Below, piece after piece: positions 33,215 to 49,052 of a stretch of 64,000 nt of DNA (within the stretch, counting starts at the first letter, position 1; every line of letters begins with the position of its first letter). Source of the stretch: Phycisphaerae bacterium (GTDB lineage: Bacteria > Planctomycetota > Phycisphaerae > Phycisphaerales > Phycisphaeraceae). Both the position numbers and the translations under genes were made by a program. Under the pieces are notes generated by a model. It worked only from the letters and a program-made list of their open reading frames with translations, made no database searches and was not told the origin of the DNA. The DNA lies in contig JAUIGU010000023.1 in NCBI GenBank assembly GCA_030432595.1, forward strand, positions 1-64,000, given 5' to 3'.

Positions 33215-33286
33215 GACCGGGTAGCTCAATGGCAGAGCATCGGCCTTTTAAGCCGCTGGTTGTGGGTTCGAATCCCACCCTGGTCA
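33215..33286 (+). tRNA. tRNA-Lys (anticodon UUU)
   Basis: A 72-nt cloverleaf. The acceptor stem GACCGGG pairs with CCTGGTC (one G-U), with a discriminator A. D stem is GCTC/GAGC, and the anticodon loop CTTTTAA gives UUU (lysine). T arm is GTGGG-TTCGAAT-CCCAC. The outermost anticodon-stem pair is mismatched. CCA is not encoded. Its 3' 48 nt lie in the element's left attachment core; the 5' part is host DNA, so the tRNA is intact after integration. Confidence 0.93.
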
Positions 33287-34737
33287 TTGTCGGAAATCAC
33301 CGAGTCAGACGCAGAAAACCCCTTGTTTGCAAGGGGTTTTTGATGCGCCGTGGTGGTCGCAACCCCCGTCCGCAGACGTGCGGGAATGTCCCGGTTTTCA
33401 GATGCCGTTGCGGGCGCGTTGCGGGCGCGGGCGTCGTCGGTGCCGGTCGCCAGGAGCGGGATCGGGGCCACCATCGCGGCCGCGGCACGGGCTCGCTGAT
33501 CGTCTGAACTCGAGTAGTGCTTCTGCCGGACCACCGCCGACGAGTGGCCCGTGATCCGCCGGGCGGTCGCGTCGTCCACGCCCGCCTGTTCCAGCCAGAC
33601 GCTTCCCGTGTGACGCAGCGCGTGGAAATCGAGCTTTCGGCCCTCGGCGTCCACGGCGGCCAGGAAATCGCCCTCAGCCCGTTTCGCGCGATCGTCAGCG
33701 TCGGGGGCGGCGGCGATGTACGCGGCTCTCGCGGCCTCCAGGTCCGCCCGCAGCATCGCGGCGGTCTTTACCCCCGGCGGCATGTCGAACAGCGGGGCGG
33801 CTGGCAGCCGGGCGGCAACGTGGTCGCGCAGCCGCTTGACCAGAACGGCGTCGGCCAGGGGGATGCGGCGCAGCTTCTTCTCTTTGCCGTGAGGCTTCAC
33901 CGTCACCATCGGTGCGTCGCCCAGATCGATGTCGGCCACAACGAGGCGCTCGATCGCGCCACGGCGCAGCGTCGTCTTGACCGCAAAGAGATACAGCAGG
34001 GCGCGCATCGGGCCGTCCAGCTCCCAAACGACATCCTCCGCCATCACGGGGCGGCCGAGGCGCTGGGCCGCGACGCCTCGCTTGGTCATGCCACGCAGGA
34101 CCTCGCCCGACTCCGCAGCACGACTCAGCCAGGCGAACTCATCGGGCGACAGTGCCCGTCGGTGCTCGCCGGCGTCGGCCGTTTCGTTCTCCAGGTTTTT
34201 CAAGGGCATCACCGCAAGACGTCCATCCTTCACACACCACCGGCAGAACTCGCGGGCGGCGTCCCGATGCTTGTTGCGCGTCGACACCGAAAGCCGCTTC
34301 TTTCGCTTCTTCGACGGCGCGGCCAGCTTCGACACTCCGGCGTTGACCGATTCCACCGACACGCCCCGCAGCGTCTTGACGCCGCTGGCCGCGAACAGCC
34401 GCTCAAGCCGCGACTTCTTCAAACTCGCCTGGGCCGCACTCGCTTTACCGGCAAGGTGGTCGCGGTACGCATCGACGTGAACACCGATGGGCTCTTTGAT
34501 TCGCTCGCTCACCTGATCGAGCCTGGGGTCGCGCAGGCCGGCGCGGTACTCGGCCTCCACCGTCAACTGTTTTTCGAGCATCCGTTCGGCGACGCTGCGA
34601 TCCGTCTGGCGCGTCGATCGCTCCCGACGGTGGCCGGTGTGATCATGCCACGCGATGACCCAAACGGGGGAGTCGCCACGGCGGTAGACGGAGCCGCGAT
34701 GGTTTCCGCGACCAATCGGGGCGGTGGGGGCGCTCAT
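33226..34737 (-). CDS. int: Tyrosine recombinase (integrase), C-terminus altered by integration
   Basis: A 503-residue phage-type tyrosine recombinase that would catalyse integration and excision at the tRNA. The N-terminal arm- and core-binding domains cover about 1-190. Catalytic residues are Arg 258/259 (TTLRRGAIERL), His372-x-x-Arg375 (DFHALRHTGS), His398 (ITGHSS) and Tyr408 (QKHYSS). The frame then runs through the attachment core and stops inside the tRNA, on the opposite strand (last residues RLKRP then MLCH). In the excised circle the same frame would instead continue from 48998 to 48842, adding 52 residues and giving a 551-residue protein. It is coupled to the upstream HTH gene by ATGA (34734-34737). 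Confidence 0.93.
   Translation of the reverse strand: MSAPTAPIGRGNHRGSVYRRGDSPVWVIAWHDHTGHRRERSTRQTDRSVAERMLEKQLTVEAEYRAGLRDPRLDQVSERIKEPIGVHVDAYRDHLAGKASAAQASLKKSRLERLFAASGVKTLRGVSVESVNAGVSKLAAPSKKRKKRLSVSTRNKHRDAAREFCRWCVKDGRLAVMPLKNLENETADAGEHRRALSPDEFAWLSRAAESGEVLRGMTKRGVAAQRLGRPVMAEDVVWELDGPMRALLYLFAVKTTLRRGAIERLVVADIDLGDAPMVTVKPHGKEKKLRRIPLADAVLVKRLRDHVAARLPAAPLFDMPPGVKTAAMLRADLEAARAAYIAAAPDADDRAKRAEGDFLAAVDAEGRKLDFHALRHTGSVWLEQAGVDDATARRITGHSSAVVRQKHYSSSDDQRARAAAAMVAPIPLLATGTDDARARNAPATASENRDIPARLRTGVATTTAHQKPLANKGFSASDSVISDNDQGGIRTHNQRLKRPMLCH
33239..33292. repeat. attL core of the integrated element
   Basis: Identical over 54 bp to 48999-49052. It begins in the tRNA anticodon stem and ends 6 bp after the tRNA 3' end. 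Base 33238 differs (C against G at 48998), and base 33293 differs (G against A), fixing both limits. It also encodes integrase residues up to Pro499 on the minus strand. Confidence 0.95.
33315..33341 (+). terminator. Intrinsic terminator for tRNA-Lys, inside int
   Basis: Stem AAAACCCCTTG / CAAGGGGTTTT (11 bp, 4-nt loop) ending in a run of five T on the plus strand, 29 bp after the tRNA. It lies in element DNA and inside the integrase frame, where it encodes KPLANKGF (residues 467-474). It would end the tRNA transcript and block antisense transcription into int. Confidence 0.75.
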
Positions 34738-34970
34738 GCTTTTCTCCGCTTGCGTTTGACCAGGTGGAGCCCGAGGTACACGGCGAGGCCGTCGATCAAC
34801 TCAATGCCCGGTGAGAACCCGGGGACGCCGAGGAAGCGCGACAATGCCGACCGGCTGATCTTCGCGTCACGCGCGATGGAGCTGATCGTCTCGCCGGCGT
34901 CCACGCGACGCCGCGCCTCAGCTCGCAGCTTTTCACTGATCCGCTCGATGTCCTGATCGACAGACGACAC
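34734..34970 (-). CDS. Small HTH regulator coupled to int
   Basis: A 78-residue DNA-binding protein starting with GTG. A helix-turn-helix lies at about residues 25-45 (AGETISSIARDAKISRSALSRFL), the resolvase/Xre-like type, with a basic end LVKRKRRKA. GTG at 34970 is chosen because it sits about where transcription should begin from the promoter at 34978-35005, giving a leaderless message; GTG 34979 would lie in the -10 box. Its stop overlaps the int start in ATGA. It is the best candidate for the element's repressor or integrase regulator. Confidence 0.7.
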   Translation of the reverse strand: MSSVDQDIERISEKLRAEARRRVDAGETISSIARDAKISRSALSRFLGVPGFSPGIELIDGLAVYLGLHLVKRKRRKA

Positions 34971-34977
34971 GGCCCGC

Positions 34978-35005
34978 ACTATACCGCGTGTGCGAATCAG
35001 CACAA
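34978..35005 (-). promoter_or_regulatory. Promoter of the HTH-int operon
   Basis: Read on the minus strand: -35 TTGTGC (35005-35000), 16-bp spacer, -10 TATAGT (34983-34978). The expected start point falls at about 34971, next to the GTG at 34970, suggesting leaderless translation. Confidence 0.55.
34989..35004. promoter_or_regulatory. Operator-like palindrome TGTGC-N6-GCACA
   Basis: A 16-bp inverted repeat placed between and partly over the -35 and -10 boxes of the HTH-int promoter. A protein bound here would block that promoter. Self-repression by the HTH protein is the simplest reading. Confidence 0.5.
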
Positions 35006-35227
35006 GTAAAAAGTTGCGCCATTCAAAAGTTTTTGTTGGTTCGATTTTTCGTTGATTAAGTAACGATTTCCAAAACACGCCGCGCCTCGACCAGCGCCCA
35101 ACATCGCCGTAAGCCGTTGTGAATAAACACATCGTCTGCGGTTCCAAAACTCTTGGATCGTCGAAAACGTTACAAAACAAGGCCAAAAATAAAACCTGCT
35201 TGTTGTGTGCGCCTCTGCCCGTGCCCC

Positions 35228-35255
35228 TTGACTTTGGACGCGGGCGGACTAATCT
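35228..35255 (+). promoter_or_regulatory. Rightward promoter for xis and early genes
   Basis: -35 TTGACT (35228-35233), 16-bp spacer, -10 TAATCT (35250-35255). It lies 187 bp upstream of the Xis-like gene on the same strand. Confidence 0.5.
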
Positions 35256-35441
35256 TCACTTGTCACCACACCTCGCGCCGTGGCGAGAGGCACCACGAAA
35301 GGATGAACCCGAAACGTCCCCCACGCATCACGCGTGCCGGAGGTTCATCCGCGTGCCCAAGCCAAACACCACAACCCACCACCAGCCCAAGCCGCCAGCC
35401 GCGGCGTGCGCTGTCCTCTACCCACGCAAGGAGAACTCCCC

Positions 35442-35648
35442 ATGAATGCCGCCGAACGCCTATCGAAAAACACGCCGTTGCTCAAAGTCTCAGACCTCTG
35501 CGAAATGCTGTCTCTGAGCCGCTCAAAGGTTTACACGCTCATCCGCGAAGACAAGCTCAAGAGCTTCACCATCGACGGAGCGCGGCGGATTCACCAGCGC
35601 GACCTCGACGAGTTTCTCGAGAAGCACCGCACCGCGGCGACCACCTGA
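35442..35648 (+). CDS. Xis/AlpA-like excisionase-family HTH protein
   Basis: A 68-residue protein with a MerR-type winged HTH of the excisionase family (HTH_17). The order is LLKVSDLCEMLSLSRSKVYTLIR, then DKLKSFTIDGARRIHQRDLDEFLEKH. AAGGAG lies 9 bp before the ATG at 35442. It probably acts as a directionality factor for the integrase or as an activator of early genes. It is the first gene of the rightward unit. Confidence 0.85.
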   Translation: MNAAERLSKNTPLLKVSDLCEMLSLSRSKVYTLIREDKLKSFTIDGARRIHQRDLDEFLEKHRTAATT

Positions 35649-35758
35649 TCCAAGCCAGCGCGGTACGGACGCCGCGCGCCCACCTGCCCCATGCGGAGCC
35701 GTAAAAAGGCCCCGCACTGCCGCGACGCAGAACGGGGCGAAGTCGTGAAGACCTACCC

Positions 35759-36232
35759 ATGACATCCTACCCATGCTCCGCGCCAACCACAACGAAACCC
35801 CAGCCGATCCACCTACCCCAGTCGATGCGCGATTTGGGGTTGCGGGCGTACGTCGAGCCGATCCGGCTGGCTGACGGCTCGGCGACCTATCGCGCTCGCG
35901 CGTACGAGGCCGACCTCGCCGCAGAGTTCCGCGCGTTCGACCACCACATCGACCACGCCAACCCCGTCGAGGCGGTCGACGAACTGCTCCATCACCTGGT
36001 CGCGTTGTTCGGCATCGGTGACGCCCAGCCCGAAACAATCACCGAGCGGTTTCTCGAACGCGGACAGAGCGTTAACGGCGGATTCTCGGATCGTCAGCGC
36101 CGTCTGTTGGGGCAAGGAATGGGAAAAGGCTGGCGCCGACGCGCGATCGGAAAACGGATCGGTCCCCGAAGCGCGGCTCGGTTCCTCGCCCTGCGCGATG
36201 TTCATCTTTTGCGGAAAGGTGGCCGGCGATGA
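35759..36232 (+). CDS. Unknown early protein of the element
   Basis: A 157-residue soluble protein not recognised. The central part is helical and acidic (EFRAFDHHIDHANPVEAVDELLHHL), while the C-terminus is basic (GWRRRAIGKRIG ... LRKGGRR). Its stop overlaps the next start in ATGA (36229-36232), so the two are coupled. It probably belongs to the replication or regulation module by position only. Confidence 0.6.
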   Translation: MTSYPCSAPTTTKPQPIHLPQSMRDLGLRAYVEPIRLADGSATYRARAYEADLAAEFRAFDHHIDHANPVEAVDELLHHLVALFGIGDAQPETITERFLERGQSVNGGFSDRQRRLLGQGMGKGWRRRAIGKRIGPRSAARFLALRDVHLLRKGGRR

Positions 36233-36966
36233 ACCAGCCGCCCGACCTGCCGGCGATGCTTGCGACCTGGCTACACGACCGCCCGGCCGTCGACCGCGCC
36301 ACGGTCCAGCGCGCCATCACCGCCGCCGTACGCAAGCACCAGGCCGGCCTGCATCACCTCGCCGAACAGCGCGAACAGCAACTCGCCCGCGGCGTACCCG
36401 CCGGCGACGTGCGGGAAGGACGGACTAAGGCGTATCTCGCCGCGATCTGGTCACTCGCCCGCCAACTCAAATTCGCCAACGTCGATCCCGGGATCAACGT
36501 AGCGGCGTGCCGTCCCGTGACGAAGTGGTTTCACGTCAACCAGCTCGCACCCATCGCCGGCAACCGCGAAGAGCTCGACACCTGGGCGGAGTTCGGCGTC
36601 GCCTGGGACAAGGCACAGATGAGCCCCGACCAGTCGCCCGTCATCGTTGCGACCCGCTACACGGAGCAGCACGCCCCGCCGGCCACGCTGGCCCGCTACA
36701 ACGACGACCCGCCGCTTTTCCGACTCGCGCGGCTCTGTTGGGCCATGGAGGAAACGAAGGCGTCAGCGTCGCCCTGGTGGCTGGGGTACCGAGACGCCGG
36801 CGCGGCGCTCGGCGTCGATCACACGCGCCTCGGCCCGTGGTTCAAACAGCTCGACCGCGACGGCATTACCGCCGTCGTCGCGCCGGGCGACCAGGCCAAA
36901 CGCAAGTCACCGCTGCGCCGGTTCATCGGCTACGACGACTCCACACAGACGGAGCCTTCACCGTGA
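36229..36966 (+). CDS. Putative replication-module protein
   Basis: A 245-residue protein, coupled at both ends by 4-bp overlaps. The C-terminal half has ARLCWAMEETKASASPWWLG, followed by DAGAALGVDHTRLGPWFKQL, which looks like a winged helix or primase-C-like HTH. A basic end (QAKRKSPLRRF) follows. Genes of this size and position in phages often initiate or regulate replication, but no catalytic motif (Walker, DnaG, Rep tyrosine) is seen. The role is inferred from place alone. Confidence 0.5.
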   Translation: MNQPPDLPAMLATWLHDRPAVDRATVQRAITAAVRKHQAGLHHLAEQREQQLARGVPAGDVREGRTKAYLAAIWSLARQLKFANVDPGINVAACRPVTKWFHVNQLAPIAGNREELDTWAEFGVAWDKAQMSPDQSPVIVATRYTEQHAPPATLARYNDDPPLFRLARLCWAMEETKASASPWWLGYRDAGAALGVDHTRLGPWFKQLDRDGITAVVAPGDQAKRKSPLRRFIGYDDSTQTEPSP

Positions 36967-37256
36967 ACGGATCGCCGACCCTCAAGACCGCGACGCTCAG
37001 CCCTCGCCAAACCGAGGTCTATGAGCTGATCCGCCGCTACCGGGCTCTGAACGCGCACGGGCCCACGCTCGCCGAGCTGGCCCACGCCCTCAACGTCTCT
37101 CCTTGCACCGTCGGCCGCCACGTCCGGGCTCTACAGGGCGTCGGCGCAGTCGTGTGGCTCCGACACCTACCGCGCTCCCTGGACGTCGCGGCCGACTTCA
37201 CGCTCCAGAACGAGCGCCGCAACGTCCGCTTCCCCATCGCCGGCTCGGTGTCATAG
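36963..37256 (+). CDS. LexA-type winged-helix protein without protease domain
   Basis: A 97-residue protein starting with GTG that overlaps the previous stop (GTGA). It is essentially the LexA N-terminal DNA-binding domain: LSPRQTEVYELIRRYRALN, then GPTLAELAHALNVSPCTVGRHVRAL. The self-cleaving peptidase half of LexA is absent. It could compete for SOS operators or regulate the late genes beyond the inverted-repeat region. Confidence 0.7.
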   Translation: MNGSPTLKTATLSPRQTEVYELIRRYRALNAHGPTLAELAHALNVSPCTVGRHVRALQGVGAVVWLRHLPRSLDVAADFTLQNERRNVRFPIAGSVS

Positions 37257-37273
37257 CACTCACGCGAATGCCG

Positions 37274-37492
37274 GAGGGTGGCGCAAAGCGCCGCCTGTGC
37301 GAATCCGTTAGGTATCTCTGCGTTCAAATCAACATAGCGTTCACAGCGTACATAGCTACACAGCAACACAGCCATCCGTGACCACGCTGCGACGCTATGA
37401 ACGCTGCGACGCTATGAACGCTGCGACGCTATGTTGAATCTTCGGAGCACCACCCAAACAGATACGCATAACCGGCGCTTTGCGCCACCCTC
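37274..37492. repeat. Imperfect inverted repeat, candidate origin or REPIN-like element
   Basis: Outer arms 37274-37293 and 37473-37492 are exact 20-bp reverse complements, each with the hairpin GGCGC-AAA-GCGCC. The similarity continues inward with gaps: CATAGCG/CAGCG blocks at 37333-37355 are inverted relative to the iterons at 37384-37433. The whole is about 220 bp with its axis near 37380. It could be a replication origin, a REP doublet or a structured RNA. Confidence 0.75.
37384..37433 (+). repeat. Three tandem 17-bp iterons
   Basis: Three head-to-tail copies of ACGCTGCGACGCTATGA (the last lacks the final base), inside the large inverted repeat. Iterons of this size are typical binding sites for a replication initiator. 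Confidence 0.85.
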
Positions 37493-37494
37493 TG

Positions 37495-37893
37495 ACGTGT
37501 GAACCCTCGACCGATTCCGTCGCCGGCACTTGTGCGGCGCGGTCGATAACAGTCGGCGCAGCGGCCAACCCCCCGGTACCCCCCCCCTCGACCCGCCCGA
37601 TCCGCCCCGCGTTGCTGGTGAGAGGAGCACCAACCCCGCCAGGACAAGGGGTTACATCGCACAGCATCGGCCGACGCAGCCGCTCCTTGTGGTCGCGGAC
37701 GATTCATCACCCTGCCAAGCGCGGCAGACGCATAAGTCCGCACCCCCGTTTCCGCGTCGCCAAGCTCGCGGCAAATATTTTTTAGACGACAAAGCGCACG
37801 CCGGACACCCACGCTACGCAGTGGACGCGCTTACGAATCCCCCGAGAAACACAGCACTTCACGCATCTTCTCACCGGTGTTACGCTCGAAGCA
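37495..37893 (+). other. Non-coding stretch before the late genes
   Basis: About 400 bp with no supported gene. It includes a C-rich run (about 37570-37590) and an AT patch AAATATTTTTTAG (about 37772) in otherwise GC-rich sequence. It must hold the promoter of the gene chain starting at 37894, but no good promoter pair was found. Confidence 0.4.
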
Positions 37894-38142
37894 ATGCACC
37901 GCGCCAACGGCCACGACCGACCCGACCTGCGCCCACCCGCCGGCCGCCTCGCGCAGTACCACGACGCCGTCAGCGACCTGGTCGAGCAGCTCGACCGCGC
38001 GATTGATACGGCGTTCCTCGCCGGCCTGCAGGGCGGCCGCTACGACCTGAGTTTTTTGCGCCACGCCGCCGCCTGGGCGGGGTACCGCCGCGGTTACTTC
38101 CGCACCGTCGGCGAGGCGCTCAACTTTTTCGGTGAAGCGTGA
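37894..38142 (+). CDS. Unknown small protein, first of the late gene chain
   Basis: An 82-residue mostly helical protein (YHDAVSDLVEQLDRAIDTAF, then LRHAAAWAGYRRGYFRTVGEAL). No family recognised. Its stop overlaps the next gene's GTG start (38139-38142). Its place at the head of a strictly coupled chain ending in ejection-like proteins is the best argument that it is real. Confidence 0.55.
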   Translation: MHRANGHDRPDLRPPAGRLAQYHDAVSDLVEQLDRAIDTAFLAGLQGGRYDLSFLRHAAAWAGYRRGYFRTVGEALNFFGEA

Positions 38143-38600
38143 ACATGACCACCGGCGCACCCGCCACCGTCGAGAACGAACCCGGCCGCCTCGAAGCCGC
38201 GCACCGCGCCGGCTTCGGTGACGCCGACGCGATCAACGCGCTCTTGCAATGGGGGTACGAGCATCTGGACGCGAACACCCGCCAGCGTTTCATGGATCGC
38301 GAGCACACGGTCGCGGGGTTTGTAACCAACCTGCGCGTCATCCAGGACTTGCGCGACGGCAACGTCACCGCCCGGGTCGGCACCAACGTTCACACAATCG
38401 CCCGCGGCGGCGTGATGCACCAGGACACCGCCGGCACCGCCGCACCACCGGCCGGCGGCGCGCAGCCGTTCGCCTCCACGCGGGAGATGTTGACGGCCCA
38501 GCGCGAAGCCACAGCGCGGTTCGGGCGGTGGGAATACGACGACGAATTCATGGCCCGGATCAAGGCCACGCCTCGATCCATCACGACAGGCATCGCCTGA
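38139..38600 (+). CDS. Unknown protein of the late gene chain
   Basis: A 153-residue protein starting with GTG in a GTGA overlap (ATG at 38145 is an alternative). It has a helical N-terminal part (DADAINALLQWGYEHLDANTRQRF). An Ala/Pro/Gly linker near residue 95 leads to an acidic-aromatic end. No membrane segment or known motif. Possibly a virion or DNA-binding protein by position only. Confidence 0.55.
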   Translation: MNMTTGAPATVENEPGRLEAAHRAGFGDADAINALLQWGYEHLDANTRQRFMDREHTVAGFVTNLRVIQDLRDGNVTARVGTNVHTIARGGVMHQDTAGTAAPPAGGAQPFASTREMLTAQREATARFGRWEYDDEFMARIKATPRSITTGIA

Positions 38601-38625
38601 CCCAGCAACGCAAAGACACGACCCG

Positions 38626-39420
38626 ATGACGACGACCACGACCACGATCGGCACGCCGAACAATTATCCGCAGCTGTCCCAGGCGGAGGTTTTGAATCGC
38701 CTCGACGCAGAGATTTCCTTCATCACCTTGGCGTCGTCTCTGCCCAACGATCCCCGGACACTGATCCGCGCCATCCTGCGCCGGCGCCTCGACGGTTCCG
38801 AGATTGCACGCGCCGAGGCCACCGACAAGAAGCTTGCCGAGCGGGACATCATGGCAAAAGCCACAGAGCTCTTGCGGGAGGTTGCCGTCGGCGTGGGGAA
38901 CCCCCTCGACGTCGTCGCGCACGCATCGCAAATCAACGGCGATTCGGAAGACTTCTACCACATCGGCAACCCGTCGTATCCGGAAATCATCACGCGAATT
39001 GCCGAGGGCAAGGATGAGGACGGCGACGCCGAAAAACTCGCCGGGCACATGCGGAAGCTCGGGATAACGCGTGACGGCGCGAACGCCGACGTGGCCGCGG
39101 TTCGCGGGCGCATGGCCGAGGAAGCCCGCATCAAACGCAAGGAGGACGAGCTCCGCGGTATCCCGAGCTTCGAAAAGATCGCCTACAGCGTGGCCCGACT
39201 CGACGAAGAGATCGACCGCGTGCTCGCCCCCTTGAAAGCCAAGCGGGACGAGCTGATCGAACTCCAGCAGAAGCGTTGCGACGTCGAGTGGGACCACGCA
39301 CACGCCACGTTCACCCCGACGATCAACCAGATCGACCGACTCGGCCCCGCCGTGCGCGTCGAACGTGGCGACCCCCGCGTGCTGTGCTCGGACCACGCCG
39401 GCGACGACCCCCCGCAGTAA
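38626..39420 (+). CDS. Unknown coiled-coil protein of the late gene chain
   Basis: A 264-residue protein. After a Thr-rich start, residues about 15-75 and 150-230 are strongly helical and charged (RGRMAEEARIKRKEDELRG; VARLDEEIDRVLAPLKAKRD), suggesting coiled coils. It is not a recognisable portal, scaffold or capsid protein, though a scaffold-like role cannot be excluded. Codon use is like its neighbours. Confidence 0.55.
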   Translation: MTTTTTTIGTPNNYPQLSQAEVLNRLDAEISFITLASSLPNDPRTLIRAILRRRLDGSEIARAEATDKKLAERDIMAKATELLREVAVGVGNPLDVVAHASQINGDSEDFYHIGNPSYPEIITRIAEGKDEDGDAEKLAGHMRKLGITRDGANADVAAVRGRMAEEARIKRKEDELRGIPSFEKIAYSVARLDEEIDRVLAPLKAKRDELIELQQKRCDVEWDHAHATFTPTINQIDRLGPAVRVERGDPRVLCSDHAGDDPPQ

Positions 39421-39424
39421 CACC

Positions 39425-39790
39425 ATGCCCCGCCCCTTGAAAAACCCGGCGACCAAACTCGGGCGCGAGCTCGACCGCGTCATGCTGCGCCTGCTGCGCG
39501 AAGGTGTTCCGCTGTTCAACAGCCAGACCGGCGAGCCGATGCTCGACGCCGACGGCAAGGCCGTCACCCGCCCGCCCAACGGCTCGGAAATGTCAGCCGT
39601 GCAAGCGCGGATCAAGTACCTCCAGGGCGGCAAGGCGCCCAAGGCCGAAACGCCCGACGCCAAGAGCGTGATGGAGATGCTCAAGCGTTCCCGTGACAGC
39701 GCCGCCGGCCCGCCAGGCCTCCAGGAGAGCGACGCCCCGCACGACCCGCGCTCACCCGCCGATCCCCCGTTGCGCATGACTACCGGATGA
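39425..39790 (+). CDS. Small protein with weak resemblance to T7-type small terminase
   Basis: A 121-residue protein from ATG 39425, 4 bp after the previous stop. RELDRVMLRLLREGVPLF, then MLDADGKAVTRPPNGSEMSA and ARIKYLQGGKAP, recalls the layout of small terminase subunits of T7-like phages. Those have helices, a short hairpin with DGxxVxxPP, and a helix ending in a short basic segment. The match is by eye and weak. If right, the element would carry a DNA-recognition subunit without the large terminase. It is coupled to the next gene by ATGA. Confidence 0.4.
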   Translation: MPRPLKNPATKLGRELDRVMLRLLREGVPLFNSQTGEPMLDADGKAVTRPPNGSEMSAVQARIKYLQGGKAPKAETPDAKSVMEMLKRSRDSAAGPPGLQESDAPHDPRSPADPPLRMTTG

Positions 39791-40125
39791 CCGTTTCGAC
39801 ACGCGAGCCCGAGCGCACCGAGTTGTTGACCGCGGAGCAGGTCGCGCAGGTGCTGGGCTGGAAGGTCCGTTATGTGGCCGACCGGCTCGACCAGGAAGAA
39901 CTGATCCCCGCCGCCATCGATCCCTTCATGAAGGGCAAACGTTGGCGGCGTCGGGAGCTGGACGACTGGCTCGCCGCCGGCTGTCCGCCCCGTTCGCTCT
40001 GGCGCTGGGAACCCGTGGTCGCGGAAGACCTGGCCCAGCGCATCCGCCGACTTCACCGTGAACTCGCCGACCTCGAGGCCCGCGTCGCCTGCCGGCGGGC
40101 GGAACTCGCGGAGATGAACGCATGA
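39787..40125 (+). CDS. HTH protein of the MerR/excisionase fold
   Basis: A 112-residue protein with a DNA-binding fold resembling HTH_17. LLTAEQVAQVLGWKVRYVADRL is followed by the wing GKRWRRRELDDWLAAG, then a C-terminal coiled coil (DLAQRIRRLHRELADLEARV). Its start and stop overlap both neighbours in ATGA. Its place in front of the large proteins suggests a late regulator or DNA-packaging role. Confidence 0.65.
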   Translation: MTVSTREPERTELLTAEQVAQVLGWKVRYVADRLDQEELIPAAIDPFMKGKRWRRRELDDWLAAGCPPRSLWRWEPVVAEDLAQRIRRLHRELADLEARVACRRAELAEMNA

Positions 40126-42863
40126 CCGCCGTCCCCACATCCGGCCTACCCGGCTCGCTCCGCCGCAACGTGGCGCCGACCCCGCCGCCACGTCAGGGCA
40201 TCGAGCAGCGCCTCCTGGCCCCGGGCCTGGCCGCACCGCCACCCGACTTGAGCGGCGTGCGCCAGATCCAGCAGATCGAGCGGGCGCTCGGGCTTGCGGG
40301 CAACGCCGCCGGCCAGGTCGGCGTCATTGCTCGCCGCCAGCGGCTGGAGTTGGAACAGGAGGCACGGGAGATTGAAAGCCAGTACCGCGGCGACGCGTCC
40401 CTGGACGCCCGCACCCAGCTCCCCGTGCTGCGCCAGCGTGTCGCGGCGGGGGAGTTTGACCACCTGCTCAACGCCGACGTGCCGCTCGACCAGGTCGTCG
40501 AACAGTTCCTCACCGAGCAGCTCACCGACCCCGAGACCGGCGAGCCCTTCGCCACGACGCCGTACGTTGACCAGTACCGCCAGGTGATCCAGCCGTCGCT
40601 GACCGCCGCCCTGGTCCAGCGCCAGACCGCACGACAGGACAGCGCCCGCGCCGAAGTCGTCGCCCTCGACGCCGAGGCCGTCACGTCGGCGACGTCGGCC
40701 GACGTGATCCGCAAGGCCGTCGAGAACACACGCCGGGTTCACCCCGACCTCACCGAGACGCAGGCGCTCAACCTCGTGCTGGTCCCCGGCCTGCGCGTCG
40801 CCGCCGAGCAGGGCGACGTGGGGCGCTTCAACCTCATCGCCGGCGAGCTCGGCGACCGCTTCCCCGGCATGGTGGCGCTGCTGCGCCTCGAAGCCCAGAA
40901 CAACAAACGCCAGGCCCAGACCCGGGCCCGGGCCCAACGCGCCGAAGCCGTCGAGAACCTGGTCGCGGACGAGCTCGACCGCTCCGCCCCCAACTTCGAC
41001 GCCGCCCGTGACGCCGTCGCCGGCGCCCAGGTCGACCCCGTCCTCAAGCTCAACCTCAACCAGCGGATCGACGCCACCGCCGACCGCTTCTTCCGGGACG
41101 CCGAGCGCCGCCAGGAGGAATGGTTGCAGGCGGAGTTTGACGGGCTCGCCGCCGAGGGGTTGCCGCCCGACGAGCTCGCCGCGCAGCTACACGAGCGTGC
41201 CGACACCGTCGCCCTGGGCATCGACGCCGAGAAGCTCGCGCCGCTCATCCAGCGGTACAGCCTCCACGCCATCCAGCGCGCCGCCCAGGCCGGCGACGTG
41301 GTCACCGTGGACCGCCTCACGCCGATGGTGGACCAACGCCCCGAGTCCCAGGCGTTCGTGATCCAGCAGCGGGGCGAAGCCCTGAACCGCCACCGTGACC
41401 GGGTGACCCAGCAGCTCCAGGCCGACGCCATCGCCCGGCCCGGCGCCGCCGCCGCCGTGTTCAACCAGGCGGCGCAGCGCCTCGACGTGTTCCGCAACCA
41501 GCCGGCGTCACCCGGGGGCATCACGCCGCAGCAGTACGCCGCCGTCGCCAACGCCGCCGCCCGCGAATCGGTGAAGGTCACCCGCCGCGAGTTGGAAGTC
41601 GCCACGCTCCGAGGCGTCTACGGCCAGGCGGCGCGTCAGCTCATCGACCCCAACGTCCCCACGCCGCCCCGGGCACAGGTCAGCGGCGACGCCGTTCTCG
41701 AAGTCTGGGCCGACGCCGGCATCGCCGAGGTCAACGCAGCCGACGGTCAGACCGTGCTGCGCCGCATCGCCGAGCCCGAACGCGCCGCCGTCCTCACCCA
41801 CCTGGCCGGCGGCGTGCCGGCTGCCGGTTGGTACGAGCAGATCGGCGCCGGCTTCGACCTGCACACCGATGCGCAGCAGGTCACGGGCAGCGCGTACGCC
41901 GAGTCCGCGCGCGCCCTCCTGGCCCTGCACCGGCAGAACCCGGCGCTGGCGCAGGAGGTCATCGCCCGCCACATCGACACCGACGCCGGCCGGACCCGGG
42001 CCCAGCGCTTCATCGAGGTGTCTGCCCAGCGGATCGGCCCGCTCACCGTGGACCCCGGCGACACCGGCACCACCGCCGGCGTGATCGCCGGCCGCCAGCT
42101 CCGCCCCGACGTGCTCGGCGAGATCAACGCCGCCGCCAAGGCCGTGGCCGCCGTCTCCCCCGTCAACCTCGACCGCACCGCCGCCCTCACGCTCGCCACC
42201 GGCGACACCTCCGCCGCCGTCGTCGCCGAGGAAACGCTCACCCGGCACCTGCCGCCGGGCTTCGAGCCCACACTCGGCATCCTGTTCGGCCGCCGCCTCG
42301 ACTTCGGCGCCGACACCGACATCGCCCCGATCCAGAGCGACGTCGCCCAGGCGTTCGAGCACCACCTGATCGACGCGTTCCGCGAACGAAAAGCCATGGG
42401 CGAAACCGACGACGCCGCGGCCAAGAACGCCCGCACCGTCGCCGCCGCTCGGACGATGGCGCTGTTCCCCCCGGTGGAATGGAACCAGGAGATCATGTTC
42501 CTGCGCGGCGGCGCCCTGGTCCCCGGCTTCGGCGGCTACGCCGAGCAGCGACTCCAGGCGCTCGACGCCACCGGACGCCTTAACCAGTCGCCGGCGTTCA
42601 TCCTCGACAACTACCTGCCCCGCTGGTCCGACAACCTCGGCGCGTGGACCCTCGTGTCGCGCGGCAACGCCGACGTGCCGCTCCGCGACGTTGACGGCGA
42701 CCTGGTCGTGATCCGCGCCGGCACCGCCGTCCGTGACGCCTTGCAGCAGCACATCGACGACATCGCCAACCAGATCGGCGACGTCGAAGCGCAACGCATC
42801 GCCCGCGAACAGTGGCGCCACACCGTCAACCAATCCATGGGCTCGATGATGTTTCAACCATGA
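40122..42863 (+). CDS. Large protein resembling T7 internal virion protein gp15
   Basis: A 913-residue mostly helical, Gln/Ala/Arg-rich protein with no membrane segment. It has the same build as T7 gp15-type ejection proteins. An N-terminal segment (RRQRLELEQEAREIESQYRG) is followed by a long alpha-solenoid. The C-terminal region ends in helices after IRAGTAVRDALQQHIDDI. Size, place before a still larger gene and the 4-bp ATGA overlap with it (42860-42863) match the gp15-gp16 order. The call rests on layout more than motifs; other large phage structural proteins are possible. Confidence 0.45.
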   Translation: MTAVPTSGLPGSLRRNVAPTPPPRQGIEQRLLAPGLAAPPPDLSGVRQIQQIERALGLAGNAAGQVGVIARRQRLELEQEAREIESQYRGDASLDARTQLPVLRQRVAAGEFDHLLNADVPLDQVVEQFLTEQLTDPETGEPFATTPYVDQYRQVIQPSLTAALVQRQTARQDSARAEVVALDAEAVTSATSADVIRKAVENTRRVHPDLTETQALNLVLVPGLRVAAEQGDVGRFNLIAGELGDRFPGMVALLRLEAQNNKRQAQTRARAQRAEAVENLVADELDRSAPNFDAARDAVAGAQVDPVLKLNLNQRIDATADRFFRDAERRQEEWLQAEFDGLAAEGLPPDELAAQLHERADTVALGIDAEKLAPLIQRYSLHAIQRAAQAGDVVTVDRLTPMVDQRPESQAFVIQQRGEALNRHRDRVTQQLQADAIARPGAAAAVFNQAAQRLDVFRNQPASPGGITPQQYAAVANAAARESVKVTRRELEVATLRGVYGQAARQLIDPNVPTPPRAQVSGDAVLEVWADAGIAEVNAADGQTVLRRIAEPERAAVLTHLAGGVPAAGWYEQIGAGFDLHTDAQQVTGSAYAESARALLALHRQNPALAQEVIARHIDTDAGRTRAQRFIEVSAQRIGPLTVDPGDTGTTAGVIAGRQLRPDVLGEINAAAKAVAAVSPVNLDRTAALTLATGDTSAAVVAEETLTRHLPPGFEPTLGILFGRRLDFGADTDIAPIQSDVAQAFEHHLIDAFRERKAMGETDDAAAKNARTVAAARTMALFPPVEWNQEIMFLRGGALVPGFGGYAEQRLQALDATGRLNQSPAFILDNYLPRWSDNLGAWTLVSRGNADVPLRDVDGDLVVIRAGTAVRDALQQHIDDIANQIGDVEAQRIAREQWRHTVNQSMGSMMFQP

Positions 42864-45800
42864 CCCAACTCGCCGACCCGCTGAATCCGCTGGTGATCGA
42901 CACCGTCCGCGACGCCGCCCCCGTCGGCCGCACCCAGGCGGCCCTGTTGGGCGTGAGCGCCGGCGAGGCCCGCCTCGACCCCGTCGCCGTCGCCGAGGCC
43001 CGGGCGCAGCAGGCGCAATCGACGGGCTTTCTCGGGATGCTCCGGTTGTCGGCAGCGCAGGAGAGCATCACCGGCACCGGCGCCGAGAACCTCGGCGCGT
43101 TCCTGGGCGACGGCGCAATCGACACGTTCCTCCACGGGCCGCGCACCGAGGACCGGTTCGACCCCGACTTCAACCCGTTCGACCTCATCGACGCCGACTT
43201 CCTCCAGGCGCACCCCTTCATGGTGGACGCCGTCGAATCCCTCGACGTCCTCGACATCCCCAACCGCCAGGCGTTCGACCGCTACGTCGCGCGCCGCCGC
43301 CGCCGCCACGAAGACGCGCAGCAGCTCGCGCAGGTCCCCCTGGGCCCCAAGCGCATCACCGCTACGCTGGTCGGCCAGGTCCCCGACGTGTTGCTCGGCG
43401 GCTACCTGGTGCGGGGCGCCGGCGTGGTGACCAACGCCGCGGGGTACGGCCAGCGCGCACGCCAGACCATTCAGCTCTTCCAGGGCACGACCGGCCGCGC
43501 GCGCCTCGCCCGCATCGCCGCCGCCGGCGGCGCGAACACTTTTCAAGAACTGGGGCTCCAGTGGGCGGACCCGAACCGGGACGTGGACCTCACCGACCCC
43601 GCCGTCGCCACGGCCGCCGTCTTCGGCCTGGGCTTCGGCGCCAGCTTCGAGGCCATCGGCGCCGCCCGCCAGCGCATCGGCAGCGTCACGCCCGTGCCCG
43701 GCTTCCGCCGCAGCCTCCAGCGCCTGCGCGAATCCTTCGCCCCCGAGACGATCCACGGTCCCGAGGACGTGGCGCGTTCCGACGTCGCCACCCTGGAGCA
43801 GCTCATCGCCGAGCCGGTCACCGGCCCGCGCACCGTTGCCGTCGTGGACAGCAACGTCACGCGGCCGCTCATCGAGCGCCTGCAACACAAGTACGACCAG
43901 GCCGGCGTCGCGCTGCACGTCCAGCCCCACCCCGGGCAGGAGTTCCTGGAGTGGGCCCACGCCCTCGACCAGCTCGAGGCCGGGCTCGACGAGCTGCGCC
44001 CCGCCGCCGCCACGGAGATCGCCGAGGGGCGCGTCGCCGGCGCCGCCGGCTCGGTGATCGAGCGTTACGTCCGCTTGCTCAACAGCGGGCCGGGTCCGTT
44101 CGCCGTCCCCGCCCAGGGCCTGCGCAACTCGATCAGCCGCGCCGCCCGCCTGGCGCACCGGGTGTTCTTCGATGAGGCCACGCCCACGGCCGAGCAGGCG
44201 GCGCGTCCGCTCACCGAAGCGCCCTTCATCCCCGCCGAGTCGCTGCGCGTCGAGGTCCGCACCGCGGTCATGCAGGCACGTCAGGACCTCCACGCCGCCA
44301 TCGACAAGCACCTTAAGAGCAAGGCCGGCCCGGTGACGTACCACGCCGCCGACGGCGAGGCCATCACCATCACCAACCGCCGCCAGGTCCACCGCCTGGG
44401 GCGCGCCGCCCTCGACTACATCCGCCAGACCGGCGAGGCCCGACGCGGCCGCGTCGATGCGCGCGCCCTCGACGACGCCACCCCGGAAGTCGTTAAGGAC
44501 GCCGCCGCGCCGCTGCGCCACTACTTCGCCGACATGCTCGACCGGCTCGACCAGGTCGAGCTGCTCCAGGGCCGTCGCACGCTGGAGCGCATGGACGACA
44601 ATATCGGCGACCTCGACGAAGCGATCGGTATCGCCGAGGCCAACCTCCGCCCGCCCCCCGGAAGCACCGACCCCACGCTCCCGCAACCAGGAGCGGGCGA
44701 CGTCCCCACTGTCCCCGACGCCCCGGTGGTCGCGGTCAACACGAGCATCCCACCGCAGTGGCGCGGTGAAGACCTGCACCTCTGGCGCGACGGCACGCTC
44801 CGCACCGGTGGCAACCGCGCGATCCAGCCCGACCAGGGGCGGGCCCGCAAGACGTTCGATGCCCGCTGGCTCCAGGAGCTCGAACGCATCGACGTCGGCG
44901 CCGAGCCCCAGGTCATCCGCCGGCTACGCCAGCTCACCGACGAGGTCTGGAAGGTGCGCCAGCGCCGCGGGCAGTTCTGGCAGGCCACCCACTACCTCGC
45001 GCCGCCGCGGCTGATCGAAGAGGCCCGCCGCACCGTGGACCAGGTCCGGCACGACCAGGCCACCGCCGCCATCGCCAAGCAGAAACGCCGGCTCGCCCAG
45101 CTCCAGGAGCAGGCCAACAACCTGCGCGCCTTCGTGGACGCTGCCGACAGCTACGTCCCCCGCCGCTGGGTCGCGCCGCTGATCCGCAAACAGGAGCTGC
45201 GCTTCAAGTCCCTGCTTGTCGAGCAGTGGCGCAAGAACCGCGAGGTGGACTTCCACACCAGCGAGAGCATCCAGCCGTCCGGCCGCGCCCTCGACGAACC
45301 GGTGATCGACCGCCTCCCCGTCGATGACCGCAACCTGATCGACGAGTTCGAGATCAGCACCGAGCAGGGGCTCATCGACGCCGGCGGTGACCTGCACGCC
45401 CGCTACCTCACGGAGCTCGACGCGTACCTCCAGGAGCAGGCCGAGGCGACGATCCGCCGGATGCTGGACCCGCAGCACGGCCACGGCATCGAAGACGCCT
45501 ACGCCGGCGGCTCGCCCCTGATGATGCGCCGGCTGCGCGAGCTGGACGAGAGCACGTTCCGCGAGTTCCTCGACGACTCGGTCGAGCAGGTTCTGTTGAT
45601 CTACGACAACCAGCTTGGCGGCAAGATCGCTGCGCGCCGCGCGATCCAGCGCAACGCCGACCGCCTCACGCCGTTCGTCCGCGAGACGCTCGACGAGGAC
45701 CTGGAGCTCGACCCCGGCCAGGTCCTGCGCGCCGTCGAAGAAGACTTCCGCAACTGGCGCCGCGCCGCCGAGGCGCTGGGCAACGAGGACCTGGGCCGCA

Positions 45801-47344
45801 AGATCGAACGCAGCCGCCAGGACACGCTGCGCATCCTCACCCGCAAGCTCGACGAGCTCCAGGGCATCCCCGCCATCCCCGAGAACGTGGGGCTGGAAGT
45901 CGGCTGGTCGCACTTCCTGCAGCGCAACTTCCTGAAGATGCCGGCGATGGCGTTCCTGGGCAAGGTGACGGCGTCGAGCTTCCCCGACATCGCCAACCTC
46001 AGCCTCTATACCCGGATGGAACGCTCGCACTTCCGCGCGATCGTCACCGGCCTGCGCCAGTTCGCCGAGGGGGTCGCGCTTAAGCCGGTTTCCAAAGACG
46101 GCCTAGAAGGACTTTCGGCGGCGCTCGACGACGACGGCCTCGCCCGCACCATGCAGCTCATGGAGATCAACGACCTGCCGTTCTCGCCGCACTTCGGCGA
46201 CAGCGTCACCGGCCGGGCGCTCCAGAAAGCCGACGCGGTCCTCGACGGGCTCAACCGCGGGTTCTTCCGCGTCAACGGCATGACCCGGTGGAACACGGTC
46301 TGGAAGCGCGTCGCCGCCCGCCTGGTGTCGTGGCAGATGCTCCACGGCGCCCAGCTCATGGCCCGGGCCCGCCGCTTCATGGACGCCGGCGAGAGCGAGG
46401 GGCAGGCGCTCCGCCACGCCGGCCTGAGTCGCGACGACGCCGCGCGCCTGAACCGCCTGGGGATCAACGGCAACAACGCCGCCGCCGTCGTCGAGCAGTT
46501 TCACCGGCACGGCACCGACGTTGACGGGCAGGCGTTCTCGGGCCTGAGCGCCGACGACTTTGCCGGCTACAAGCGGATCGTTCACCCCAACCTCAAGGAC
46601 TGGAACGACCCCGACCTCGTCGAAGCCGTCACCGCCGCGATCAACTCGGAGGTTGACAACCTCATCGTCACGCCCAAGCTGCTGAGCCGGCCGCTGTTCA
46701 ACACCGATCCGCGCTTCGGCTTCATCGGAAAAGTCTTCCACCAGTTCCAGGCGTTCGCGTTCGCCTACGGGAACCAGCTCGCCCCGCAGCTCGCCGGCCG
46801 GCCCGGCTTCGCCATCACCAACTTCCTCACACAAGCGCTCTTCCTGGGCGCGATCAGCGACGCCGTCCACAACGCCGCCAGCGGGCGCCGCGACCTGGGC
46901 GAGACGATCAACTTGTGGACCGACCCCAAGACGGCGCCGGGCATGGCCTACGCCGCCGTCAACCGCGCCGGCGTGTTCGGCTACCTCGCGCGGCCCATGG
47001 CCATCGCCGACCAGGCCGGCGTCGGCGTCGGGCCGATCCTGGGCAACGACGTCTCGAGCATGGCGGCGGCCAACGCCATCACCGTGAGCGGCAACCTCGG
47101 CCCGTTCGTGGATTGGGCCGACGCGCTCACCACCAACACGCTCGGCCCGATGGTGATGGAGGGGCGCAGCTACGACGCCCGCACGCGCCACGCGCTGCGG
47201 AAGACCCTGCCGTTCCAGAATCTGCTTTGGACCGAGGCGCTCTACACCGCCACGCGGGACCTGGGATTCGACTCGCCGATCGGGCGGGGGGAAGGGGTGG
47301 ACGTGTTCTTGACGCGGCCGGCGTACGAGGCGGAGCGGGAGTGA
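42860..47344 (+). CDS. Giant protein resembling T7 internal virion protein gp16 (ejection)
   Basis: A 1494-residue protein starting at ATG 42860, coupled to the gp15-like gene. N-terminal 300 residues include hydrophobic segments (QVPDVLLGGYLVRGAGVV; VATAAVFGLGFGASFEAI). The middle (about 350-1040) is helical and charged. The last 300 residues resemble the end of podovirus gp16-like proteins: KVFHQFQAFAFAYGNQ, TQALFLGAISDAVHNAASG, NRAGVFGYLARPMA and a terminal LRKTLPFQNLLWTEAL. Such proteins leave the virion with the DNA and form a channel across the envelope. No transglycosylase motif was seen at the N-terminus, unlike T7 gp16. Confidence 0.55.
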   Translation: MTQLADPLNPLVIDTVRDAAPVGRTQAALLGVSAGEARLDPVAVAEARAQQAQSTGFLGMLRLSAAQESITGTGAENLGAFLGDGAIDTFLHGPRTEDRFDPDFNPFDLIDADFLQAHPFMVDAVESLDVLDIPNRQAFDRYVARRRRRHEDAQQLAQVPLGPKRITATLVGQVPDVLLGGYLVRGAGVVTNAAGYGQRARQTIQLFQGTTGRARLARIAAAGGANTFQELGLQWADPNRDVDLTDPAVATAAVFGLGFGASFEAIGAARQRIGSVTPVPGFRRSLQRLRESFAPETIHGPEDVARSDVATLEQLIAEPVTGPRTVAVVDSNVTRPLIERLQHKYDQAGVALHVQPHPGQEFLEWAHALDQLEAGLDELRPAAATEIAEGRVAGAAGSVIERYVRLLNSGPGPFAVPAQGLRNSISRAARLAHRVFFDEATPTAEQAARPLTEAPFIPAESLRVEVRTAVMQARQDLHAAIDKHLKSKAGPVTYHAADGEAITITNRRQVHRLGRAALDYIRQTGEARRGRVDARALDDATPEVVKDAAAPLRHYFADMLDRLDQVELLQGRRTLERMDDNIGDLDEAIGIAEANLRPPPGSTDPTLPQPGAGDVPTVPDAPVVAVNTSIPPQWRGEDLHLWRDGTLRTGGNRAIQPDQGRARKTFDARWLQELERIDVGAEPQVIRRLRQLTDEVWKVRQRRGQFWQATHYLAPPRLIEEARRTVDQVRHDQATAAIAKQKRRLAQLQEQANNLRAFVDAADSYVPRRWVAPLIRKQELRFKSLLVEQWRKNREVDFHTSESIQPSGRALDEPVIDRLPVDDRNLIDEFEISTEQGLIDAGGDLHARYLTELDAYLQEQAEATIRRMLDPQHGHGIEDAYAGGSPLMMRRLRELDESTFREFLDDSVEQVLLIYDNQLGGKIAARRAIQRNADRLTPFVRETLDEDLELDPGQVLRAVEEDFRNWRRAAEALGNEDLGRKIERSRQDTLRILTRKLDELQGIPAIPENVGLEVGWSHFLQRNFLKMPAMAFLGKVTASSFPDIANLSLYTRMERSHFRAIVTGLRQFAEGVALKPVSKDGLEGLSAALDDDGLARTMQLMEINDLPFSPHFGDSVTGRALQKADAVLDGLNRGFFRVNGMTRWNTVWKRVAARLVSWQMLHGAQLMARARRFMDAGESEGQALRHAGLSRDDAARLNRLGINGNNAAAVVEQFHRHGTDVDGQAFSGLSADDFAGYKRIVHPNLKDWNDPDLVEAVTAAINSEVDNLIVTPKLLSRPLFNTDPRFGFIGKVFHQFQAFAFAYGNQLAPQLAGRPGFAITNFLTQALFLGAISDAVHNAASGRRDLGETINLWTDPKTAPGMAYAAVNRAGVFGYLARPMAIADQAGVGVGPILGNDVSSMAAANAITVSGNLGPFVDWADALTTNTLGPMVMEGRSYDARTRHALRKTLPFQNLLWTEALYTATRDLGFDSPIGRGEGVDVFLTRPAYEAERE

Positions 47345-47347
47345 CGG

Positions 47348-47833
47348 CTAATCAACGTCGAGCACCCACTCCGAATCAGGCCAATAGGGGTACCGCGGCG
47401 TTTCCTCCATCGCGAAAAGAATCTCCAACGCTTCGAGTTTGGCGTTGATGTCGGCCGGCGTCAGCATCGACAACGAAAAGAACGCGTGCGCCCACAGGCT
47501 CAGCGGTTGCTCGGCGTCGTCGCTCTCCACCCCGGCGAGCCATTCCCGCTGCAGATACTCGTGGAACCAATGCACCTGACCCGGCAACTCCACCGTGAAC
47601 GCTTCGCGAGGAAGCGCATCGAGCGCCGCGGGGTCGGCAACGCCGGCGGCGGCGACGTGCCGATCAATCACAATCAGCCGGTGCGGGGGCTCCAGGCGGT
47701 AGAACTCCATGACCGCCAAGCAACAAGCCTTCTTCGCGCCGATCCGCTCCGCCACCGACAGCGACGCCTCGGCCGCCGCGCGGTCGATGACGAACTCCAC
47801 GGCGACGGGTTTCCACTCGGCGGGCTCAGGCAT
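47348..47833 (-). CDS. Unknown cargo protein of the element
   Basis: A 161-residue protein, ATG at 47833 (a GTG 15 bp upstream is possible). It converges on the giant gene, with the two stops only 3 bp apart. Motifs such as RLIVIDRHVAAAGVADPA and WFHEYLQREWLAGV suggest an alpha/beta fold, but I do not recognise a family. It is in the same direction as the next gene (48249), 44 bp apart, so the two probably form a unit. Position near attR is typical for accessory genes such as defence or immunity. Confidence 0.55.
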   Translation of the reverse strand: MPEPAEWKPVAVEFVIDRAAAEASLSVAERIGAKKACCLAVMEFYRLEPPHRLIVIDRHVAAAGVADPAALDALPREAFTVELPGQVHWFHEYLQREWLAGVESDDAEQPLSLWAHAFFSLSMLTPADINAKLEALEILFAMEETPRYPYWPDSEWVLDVD

Positions 47834-47877
47834 AAAGCCCTGACCCACTTTGAAGCGGGCCGGGGCGGAAAGATGAT

Positions 47878-48249
47878 TTAGTTCGCATCGCTGGCGGCAT
47901 TACCTGCCCGCGCAACTTCTTGGCTTTTAAGCCACTGCGATACGTCTAGGCGTATATTGCAACAGTTGCCGGGCGCAGGTATTTGACCGGGGTCAGCCAC
48001 GTTAACAACTTCCAGCCCGCCCTCCACACTGCCTTCAATCCGGCTCCAGACCCGCTCATCCTTGAGCAGCGTCTCAAAAAAACTGTCGGGGAACACGGCG
48101 TTGGGTGGGGTATCAAGTCTGAGACGAAGAACCTCCATCCAACAGAGCACACGCCGGATGTGAATCTCGTCGTGTTTGTAGGCGTCCTCGCAGTCCTCAA
48201 GACAACTACGAATCTGGCGGTCGGCTTCAAAGAGTACATCCGAAATCAT
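47878..48249 (-). CDS. Unknown cargo protein of the element
   Basis: A 123-residue acidic protein (LFEADRQIRSCLEDCEDAYKHDE, shortened here to its helical start DRQIRSCLEDCEDAY). It has several cysteines and no membrane segment. Base composition is visibly less GC-rich than the late genes beside it, suggesting a separate origin. Not recognised. Confidence 0.5.
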   Translation of the reverse strand: MISDVLFEADRQIRSCLEDCEDAYKHDEIHIRRVLCWMEVLRLRLDTPPNAVFPDSFFETLLKDERVWSRIEGSVEGGLEVVNVADPGQIPAPGNCCNIRLDVSQWLKSQEVARAGNAASDAN

Positions 48250-48437
48250 GGCCGTTCACTCCAATCAGTTTGATCAAGGGGGTGTGCATTTCCGCTCAGA
48301 CCCTACCGACCGTCGGCAGAAATCCAAGCGATATTTCTGTCAACCTGCGGTGTGGTAAACCGCAGTCGCGCGCCGTCGTCGCAACGACTTGCGCCAATGT
48401 TGGGCGCTGGGTTGGGCGCTCGAATTACAGGAAAGTC

Positions 48438-48770
48438 CTACCCGTTCACCACGGCCACGACCTCACCCCGCGCCGCCTCCAGCGCCGCCGTCGCCCCGCT
48501 GGTCGCTATGAACTGGTCCAGGCCCTTCAGCGCGTCGCCGGCGGCGTCGAGCAGGTTCTCACGGTCTATGCCGTGGACCCGGCGGTCGGGCCCCTCGACG
48601 TCGAGCTCGCTCCACAGCCAGGCGGACACGCGCCCGTCTTGCTCGGCGAAGGCGTAGGCCTCGGTCATCTCGACCAGCTCGCCGACGGTGCCGACGAACT
48701 CGGCGTGTTCGAGCGTGATCCCCAGGGCGGGCAGGGCGGTCGGCGCGGGCGCAGTCATCAGGGCGGTCAT
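48438..48770 (-). CDS. Unknown small protein of the element
   Basis: A 110-residue protein from ATG 48770 (MTALMTAPAPTALPALG). The middle is a helical acidic region (GTVGELVEMTEAYAFAEQDG) with ENLLDAAGDALKGLDQF near the end. No family recognised. It lies 71 bp from the displaced integrase end, on the same strand, so in the excised circle it is downstream of int. Confidence 0.5.
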   Translation of the reverse strand: MTALMTAPAPTALPALGITLEHAEFVGTVGELVEMTEAYAFAEQDGRVSAWLWSELDVEGPDRRVHGIDRENLLDAAGDALKGLDQFIATSGATAALEAARGEVVAVVNG

Positions 48771-48841
48771 GGTTCGATCCTCGGCCGGCGGGGTGAGTGA
48801 ACGCGGCAGCCGCACGCCGGCGGCGCGGCCGCGCGTGTGGG

Positions 48842-48998
48842 TCAGGTGTTGGCGTCGATGAGCGTCTGGATCGTCTGCCGGACGTGGTCAGGCAACGCCG
48901 GCCACGCCCGGATCAGGCGGTCCAGCTCCGACGCGTTGCGGGGGTCTGTGTCACCCCCGCCTGTAAGTTGAGGTGTAACACCACTTGCAGATTCGCTG
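48842..48998 (-). pseudogene. Displaced 3' end of int (joined to int only in the circular form)
   Basis: A 157-bp tail of an open frame that runs through attR in the same frame as int runs through attL. It encodes 52 residues starting ISESASGVTP, with an amphipathic end ELDRLIRAWPALPDHVRQTI, of a type common at integrase C-termini. In the integrated state it lacks its own start and the rest of the gene. Excision would restore a 551-residue integrase. Confidence 0.75.
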
Positions 48999-49052
48999 AT
49001 CGGCCTTTTAAGCCGCTGGTTGTGGGTTCGAATCCCACCCTGGTCATTGTCG
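48999..49052. repeat. attR core of the integrated element
   Basis: The second copy of the 54-bp core, with the tRNA 3' half but no 5' half, so it is not a functional tRNA gene. Element DNA is on the left, host DNA on the right. Confidence 0.95.

Follow-up and report, generated by a model that had tools for sequence, protein, structure and literature searches.

An Attachment Site inside the Integrase Gene and a Severable Integrase Tail, Predicted from Sequence, in Integrated Elements of Planctomycetota

In the window, that is, the whole 64,000-nucleotide stretch of Phycisphaerae DNA that was analysed, the gene of a tyrosine integrase runs into the attachment core of its own element. This raises the question of what integration does to the enzyme, and whether the part that is cut off has a function.

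The integrase gene and the attachment core

An exact repeat of 54 bp is present in two copies, at 33239-33292 (attL) and 48999-49052 (attR), spaced by 15,760 bp, and with the core repeats as boundaries the integrated element covers 15,760 bp (33239-48998). A tRNA-Lys(TTT) gene was located by ARAGORN at 33215-33286 on the forward strand, so the left copy consists of the 3′ part of this tRNA and a further 6 bp. In the right copy no tRNA was called by ARAGORN; it is a displaced tRNA 3′ fragment. The tRNA gene is the attachment target, restored by the element.

The integrase is encoded on the reverse strand at 33229-34737 (PF00589, E=3.5e-11; phrog_1, E=1.2e-25), with its stop codon at 33226-33228. 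In its prophage form it has 503 aa, and the open frame (34737-33226) ends in GGIRTHNQRLKRP followed by MLCH. The frame reads the attL core as DNDQGGIRTHNQRLKRP, and the last four residues and the stop (33226-33238, reverse strand) are host encoded, antisense to the 5′ part of the tRNA. When the two ends are joined at the core, the same frame gives a protein of 551 aa, composed of the 499 shared residues and ISESASGVTPQLTGGGDTDPRNASELDRLIRAWPALPDHVRQTIQTLIDANT, with its stop at 48844-48842. The 52 codons and stop of this tail (48842-49000, reverse strand) would be connected to int in the circle only, as is indicated by the in-frame joining and by the detached motif in relatives. In other words, the attP core lies within the reading frame of int, and integration swaps a 52-aa tail for the host-encoded MLCH.

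The earlier note had claimed that the core is read in one integrase frame at both ends, and its repeats, coordinates and arithmetic hold. The same applies to its view that attP lies inside int and that integration truncates the enzyme, that is, 503 aa in the prophage against 551 aa in the joined form. The length and the stop of the tail were also correct, but not its start at 48998, because the first tail codon takes the core bases 49000-48999. At the level of sequence, an attP inside int with a severed tail is a confirmed observation.

All catalytic residues (R258, K285, H372, R375, H398 and Y408) are found upstream of the core, within the 503-aa frame. They make up the R-K-H-R-H-Y set of tyrosine recombinases (PF00589), and the six positions are invariant across four viral-contig homologs. 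Foldseek matches of the integrase fold were lambda Int, Cre, XerA and XerH. The AlphaFold model is confident to about residue 410 and has a pLDDT below 50 for residues 419-503, which places the cut in a predicted unfolded tether, about 90 residues past Tyr408. For the tail alone, which has no match in Pfam, two helices were predicted with modest confidence (tail residues 23-32 and 38-51). Since the catalytic domain stays intact, integration takes off an accessory domain and does not kill the enzyme.

Regarding the rest of the element, an HTH_17/AlpA-like protein on the forward strand (35334-35648; HTH_17, E=4.7e-13; phrog_66, E=2.2e-8) is a candidate excisionase, and a second AlpA/excisionase-like HTH protein is located in the same small element at 39787-40125. 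A protein of 1510 aa (42812-47344) resembles internal virion proteins (phrog_16310, E=4.5e-31; phrog_342, E=3.6e-22), and no capsid, portal or terminase family was matched among the other ORFs of the element that were scanned; this is perhaps a satellite or a reduced prophage. An inverted repeat of 39 nt with 85% complementarity (37274-37312 and 37454-37492) has its arms 141 nt apart. A weak terminator-like hairpin (33319-33336), readable on both strands, lies within the int ORF, immediately inward of the core. The transcript of the restored tRNA might be terminated there, or the int mRNA ahead of the core, and the hairpin could lower the expression of the 3′ end of either form of the integrase. 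A tRNA terminator inside int was rejected as a general feature (6 of 27 elements, with about 2 expected).

The detached tail in related elements

A search of 61 relatives with the 52-aa tail as query gave recurrent, though weak, matches; they are located in short open frames, the upstream part of which reads like antisense tRNA (e.g., GFEP.., GIRTH.., DSNP..). The two-helix tail motif, L..LI.AWP.LP..VR..I..LV, is detached at the far end of these other elements. A lack of integrase homologs with such a tail had been named in the earlier note as evidence against its reading; the motif does occur in relatives, in the frame of their integrases.

A tail profile built from 16 sequences matched 181 of the 297 genomes of the class (E ≤ 1e-3) and, with the stricter cut-off of E ≤ 1e-6, 39 of the 294 genomes of the phylum. 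Most of these matches are in short open frames. The first Leu and the Trp are shared by all of 106 distinct tails, and 99% of them have the second Pro, figures obtained by protein-profile detection, which is biased toward amino-acid conservation of the motif. An antisense tRNA T-loop lies within 300 nt upstream in 64 out of 110 tails and downstream in none (0/110). In 62 of these 64 cases it is inside the tail's own open frame. Tails stop 28-41 aa past the start of the motif in 26 of 27 pairs. On the other side of the elements, the replacement ends of the integrated state are mostly unrelated between relatives and range from 0 to more than 50 residues. As the motif is conserved and the replacement ends are mostly unrelated, the domain lost on integration is a conserved one, and what replaces it is not.

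Differences between related tails are distributed as 31, 18 and 55 over codon positions 1, 2 and 3. The linker codons have no third-position bias (71, 84 and 75, respectively). To judge from these substitutions, the tail is constrained as a protein and the linker is not. Integrase and tail show a weak signal of co-phylogeny (r=0.16, p=0.04), and tails accompany distant integrase subfamilies as well (L085 and L091). Three loci (L051, L171 and L174; G468) have near-identical tails, with an open frame that is short or broken by stops before any tRNA core; these may be decayed ends or may reflect another attachment arrangement.

According to the model, the integrase should be on the strand of the tail, downstream of it, and should end in the same core. 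Up to 20 kb were fetched on the predicted side of the tails and, for 11 contigs, on the other side as well. In six of these 11, the predicted side had an integrase within 20 kb; the other side had one in none. Every integrase found is on the strand of its tail. About half of the fetched tails have no integrase within 20 kb, which points to longer elements or to decay. At another locus (L161, 9497-13552), three consecutive tyrosine recombinase ORFs are located on one strand, and the last ends in antisense tRNA; a tail ORF at a distance of about 12 kb has a similar upstream part.

Integrase ends and tails were counted as pairs when they had a common repeat of score 16 or more (a core of at least 16 bp). 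The same frame runs through the repeat in 27 of 27 pairs, two of which come from the window and from the IMG/VR contig L175, whereas in the control, where integrases were combined with the tails of other elements, frames agreed in 32 of 60 combinations. A separate scan of named GTDB contigs gave agreement in nine out of nine, two of them elements already counted. In total, the frame of the core joins integrase to tail in 34/34 distinct pairs, some of which are related, so that they do not stand for 34 independent events. The best single control of frame matching is provided by genome G231 (L117, L126 and L127; G231:C18), where two tandem elements with identical core DNA occupy one tRNA gene. 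Their integrases read the common core in different frames, RAKGLEPSTFSLEG and SGRRDSNPQHSAWKA, and both tails keep the frame of their own integrase. The architecture and its recurrence through Planctomycetota are thereby shown on sequence grounds.

Neither a free circular genome nor an excised contig with intact integrase, core and tail was found in viral contigs or in phage and plasmid records, and we infer the excised junction from the two integrated ends. Among viral contigs, no close relative of the whole integrase was detected and profile searches returned only split or tail-less cases; phage and plasmid records held no useful relative. Open frames with contiguous integrase and tail are rare in chromosomes, and all of them (L141, L142, L146 and L207) are broken. 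In the circularity check, contigs with contiguous integrase and tail had no terminal repeats, and their genes were broken. When the empty attB was sought in relatives, the tRNA itself was the sole match and the flanks were too diverged.

Known systems and the role of the tail

In the case of Mx8 (and Mx9), attP lies inside int and the prophage gains a new 3′ end of int; integration is reported in a review to change the specificity of the integrase without inactivating it (PMC6070905). Integrases that extend across attP are also allowed for by the authors of Islander, who name Mx8 and SSV (PMC4383910). Overlooked in the earlier note, as was the spread of the arrangement through a phylum, Int/IntX of Mx8 is the direct precedent for the element of the window, which has the same arrangement of attP in the int coding sequence and a new 3′ end. 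The two integrases are only distantly related (25 bits, N-terminal half), and with the tail profile Mx8 Int (AF396866) gives no match (best domain at -3.4 bits), so the Mx8 tail is unrelated. The target of Mx8, according to the papers on this phage, is reportedly the 3′ end of a tRNA gene as well.

The best explanation as a whole, to which we assign a probability of about 0.55, is that the tail is used in the circle, that the tail-less integrase excises, and that the two states form a self-resetting switch. In the circle, the 551-aa enzyme would be made, with a small two-helix tail at its C-terminus that is linked to the catalytic domain by a disordered tether, in which attP would lie. Recombination with the tRNA-Lys gene would cut int at the tether. 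The resulting 503-aa enzyme would keep its whole catalytic domain and gain a few residues encoded by the host, and the tail codons, separated from their gene, would be left at the other end of the element until excision rejoins both. The tail would be a domain that the integrase uses in the circle, most likely favouring attP × attB recombination through inter-subunit contact or stability, and the tail-less form would act in excision together with the excisionase. Thus, the state of the integrase would be coupled to the state of the DNA, as in Mx8. An integrated copy makes the tail-less form only, so an element that is mobile must rely on this form for excision. For the same reason the suggestion of the earlier note that truncation may block excision is, in its strong form, unlikely.

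The main rival of this two-isoform model is that attP lies in int simply because integrase and attP then travel as one compact module, with no regulation; the tail would be kept as the proper C-terminus of the circular-form protein, and both isoforms would work alike. The unconstrained linker, the unaffected catalytic domain and the presence of tails with distant integrase subfamilies are all consistent with such a module. On the contrary, the conservation of the Trp/Pro/Leu motif in 106 distinct tails indicates a function that integrated copies always lack, and we consider the module the less probable reading, though a serious one. A chance open frame is refuted as the origin of the tail. Long chance ORFs are abundant in GC-rich DNA, but in many elements the motif is found again at the far end, where the model predicts it, and its frame is that of their integrase.

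Two further explanations are drawn from known systems. In the mycobacteriophage BPs, attP lies in the repressor gene and the prophage makes a C-terminally shortened protein (PMC4557955). By analogy, the tail could destabilize the integrase in the circle and integration would give a stable enzyme, as with the C-terminal tag of the BPs repressor. The geometry equals that of BPs gp33 (PMC4557955), and to this extent the likeness to integration-dependent immunity proposed in the earlier note holds. However, the switched gene in BPs is a repressor with an ssrA-like degron as its tail, whereas in the window it is an integrase (PF00589) with a conserved two-helix motif and variable ends. As far as the terminal residues are concerned, the tails bear no likeness to ssrA degrons: no two of 27 tails share a final tripeptide, most of these tripeptides are charged or polar, and the conserved part lies in the interior. 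A degron is therefore quite unlikely. Even less probable is a suicidal integrase, inactivated by integration and replaced in excision by an integrase acting in trans from another copy. Archaeal integrases of the SSV1 type do have the attachment site in int and are divided by integration (PMC8371274), but neither product of that division, an N part and a catalytic C part, is active, whereas in the window the accessory tail alone is lost. The SSV-type separation of the catalytic domain was not found here; R258 to Y408 are all within the 503-aa ORF, and the cut falls well past the catalytic tyrosine.

Significance for Planctomycetota elements

Under the preferred model, we infer that it is in the circular state of the element that the tail acts. 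The simplest functional form of the model, an integrating and an excising isoform of one enzyme, stands at roughly even odds. That Planctomycetota elements carry an integrase domain needed only in the circle, so that the state of the DNA would select the integrating or the excising isoform, is put forward tentatively, at somewhat less than even odds.

What is new, as read from the genomes, is a conserved and severable integrase tail across Planctomycetota, in dozens of related elements. Among bacterial phages, an attP inside int was previously known chiefly from Myxococcus phages. A phylum-wide conserved integrase tail is not described in the open-access papers searched, and no report of the int-tail arrangement in Planctomycetota was found in the open-access literature, an absence that is not proof.

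These results suggest that what looked like a peculiarity of two Myxococcus phages is a frequent arrangement in another phylum, where the detachable domain is conserved. The choice of an integrase between insertion and excision becomes testable, as two natural isoforms can be compared. In Planctomycetota genomes, the far ends of mobile elements can be recognized with the tail profile; detached tails and integrase ends antisense to tRNA otherwise look like unrelated small ORFs.
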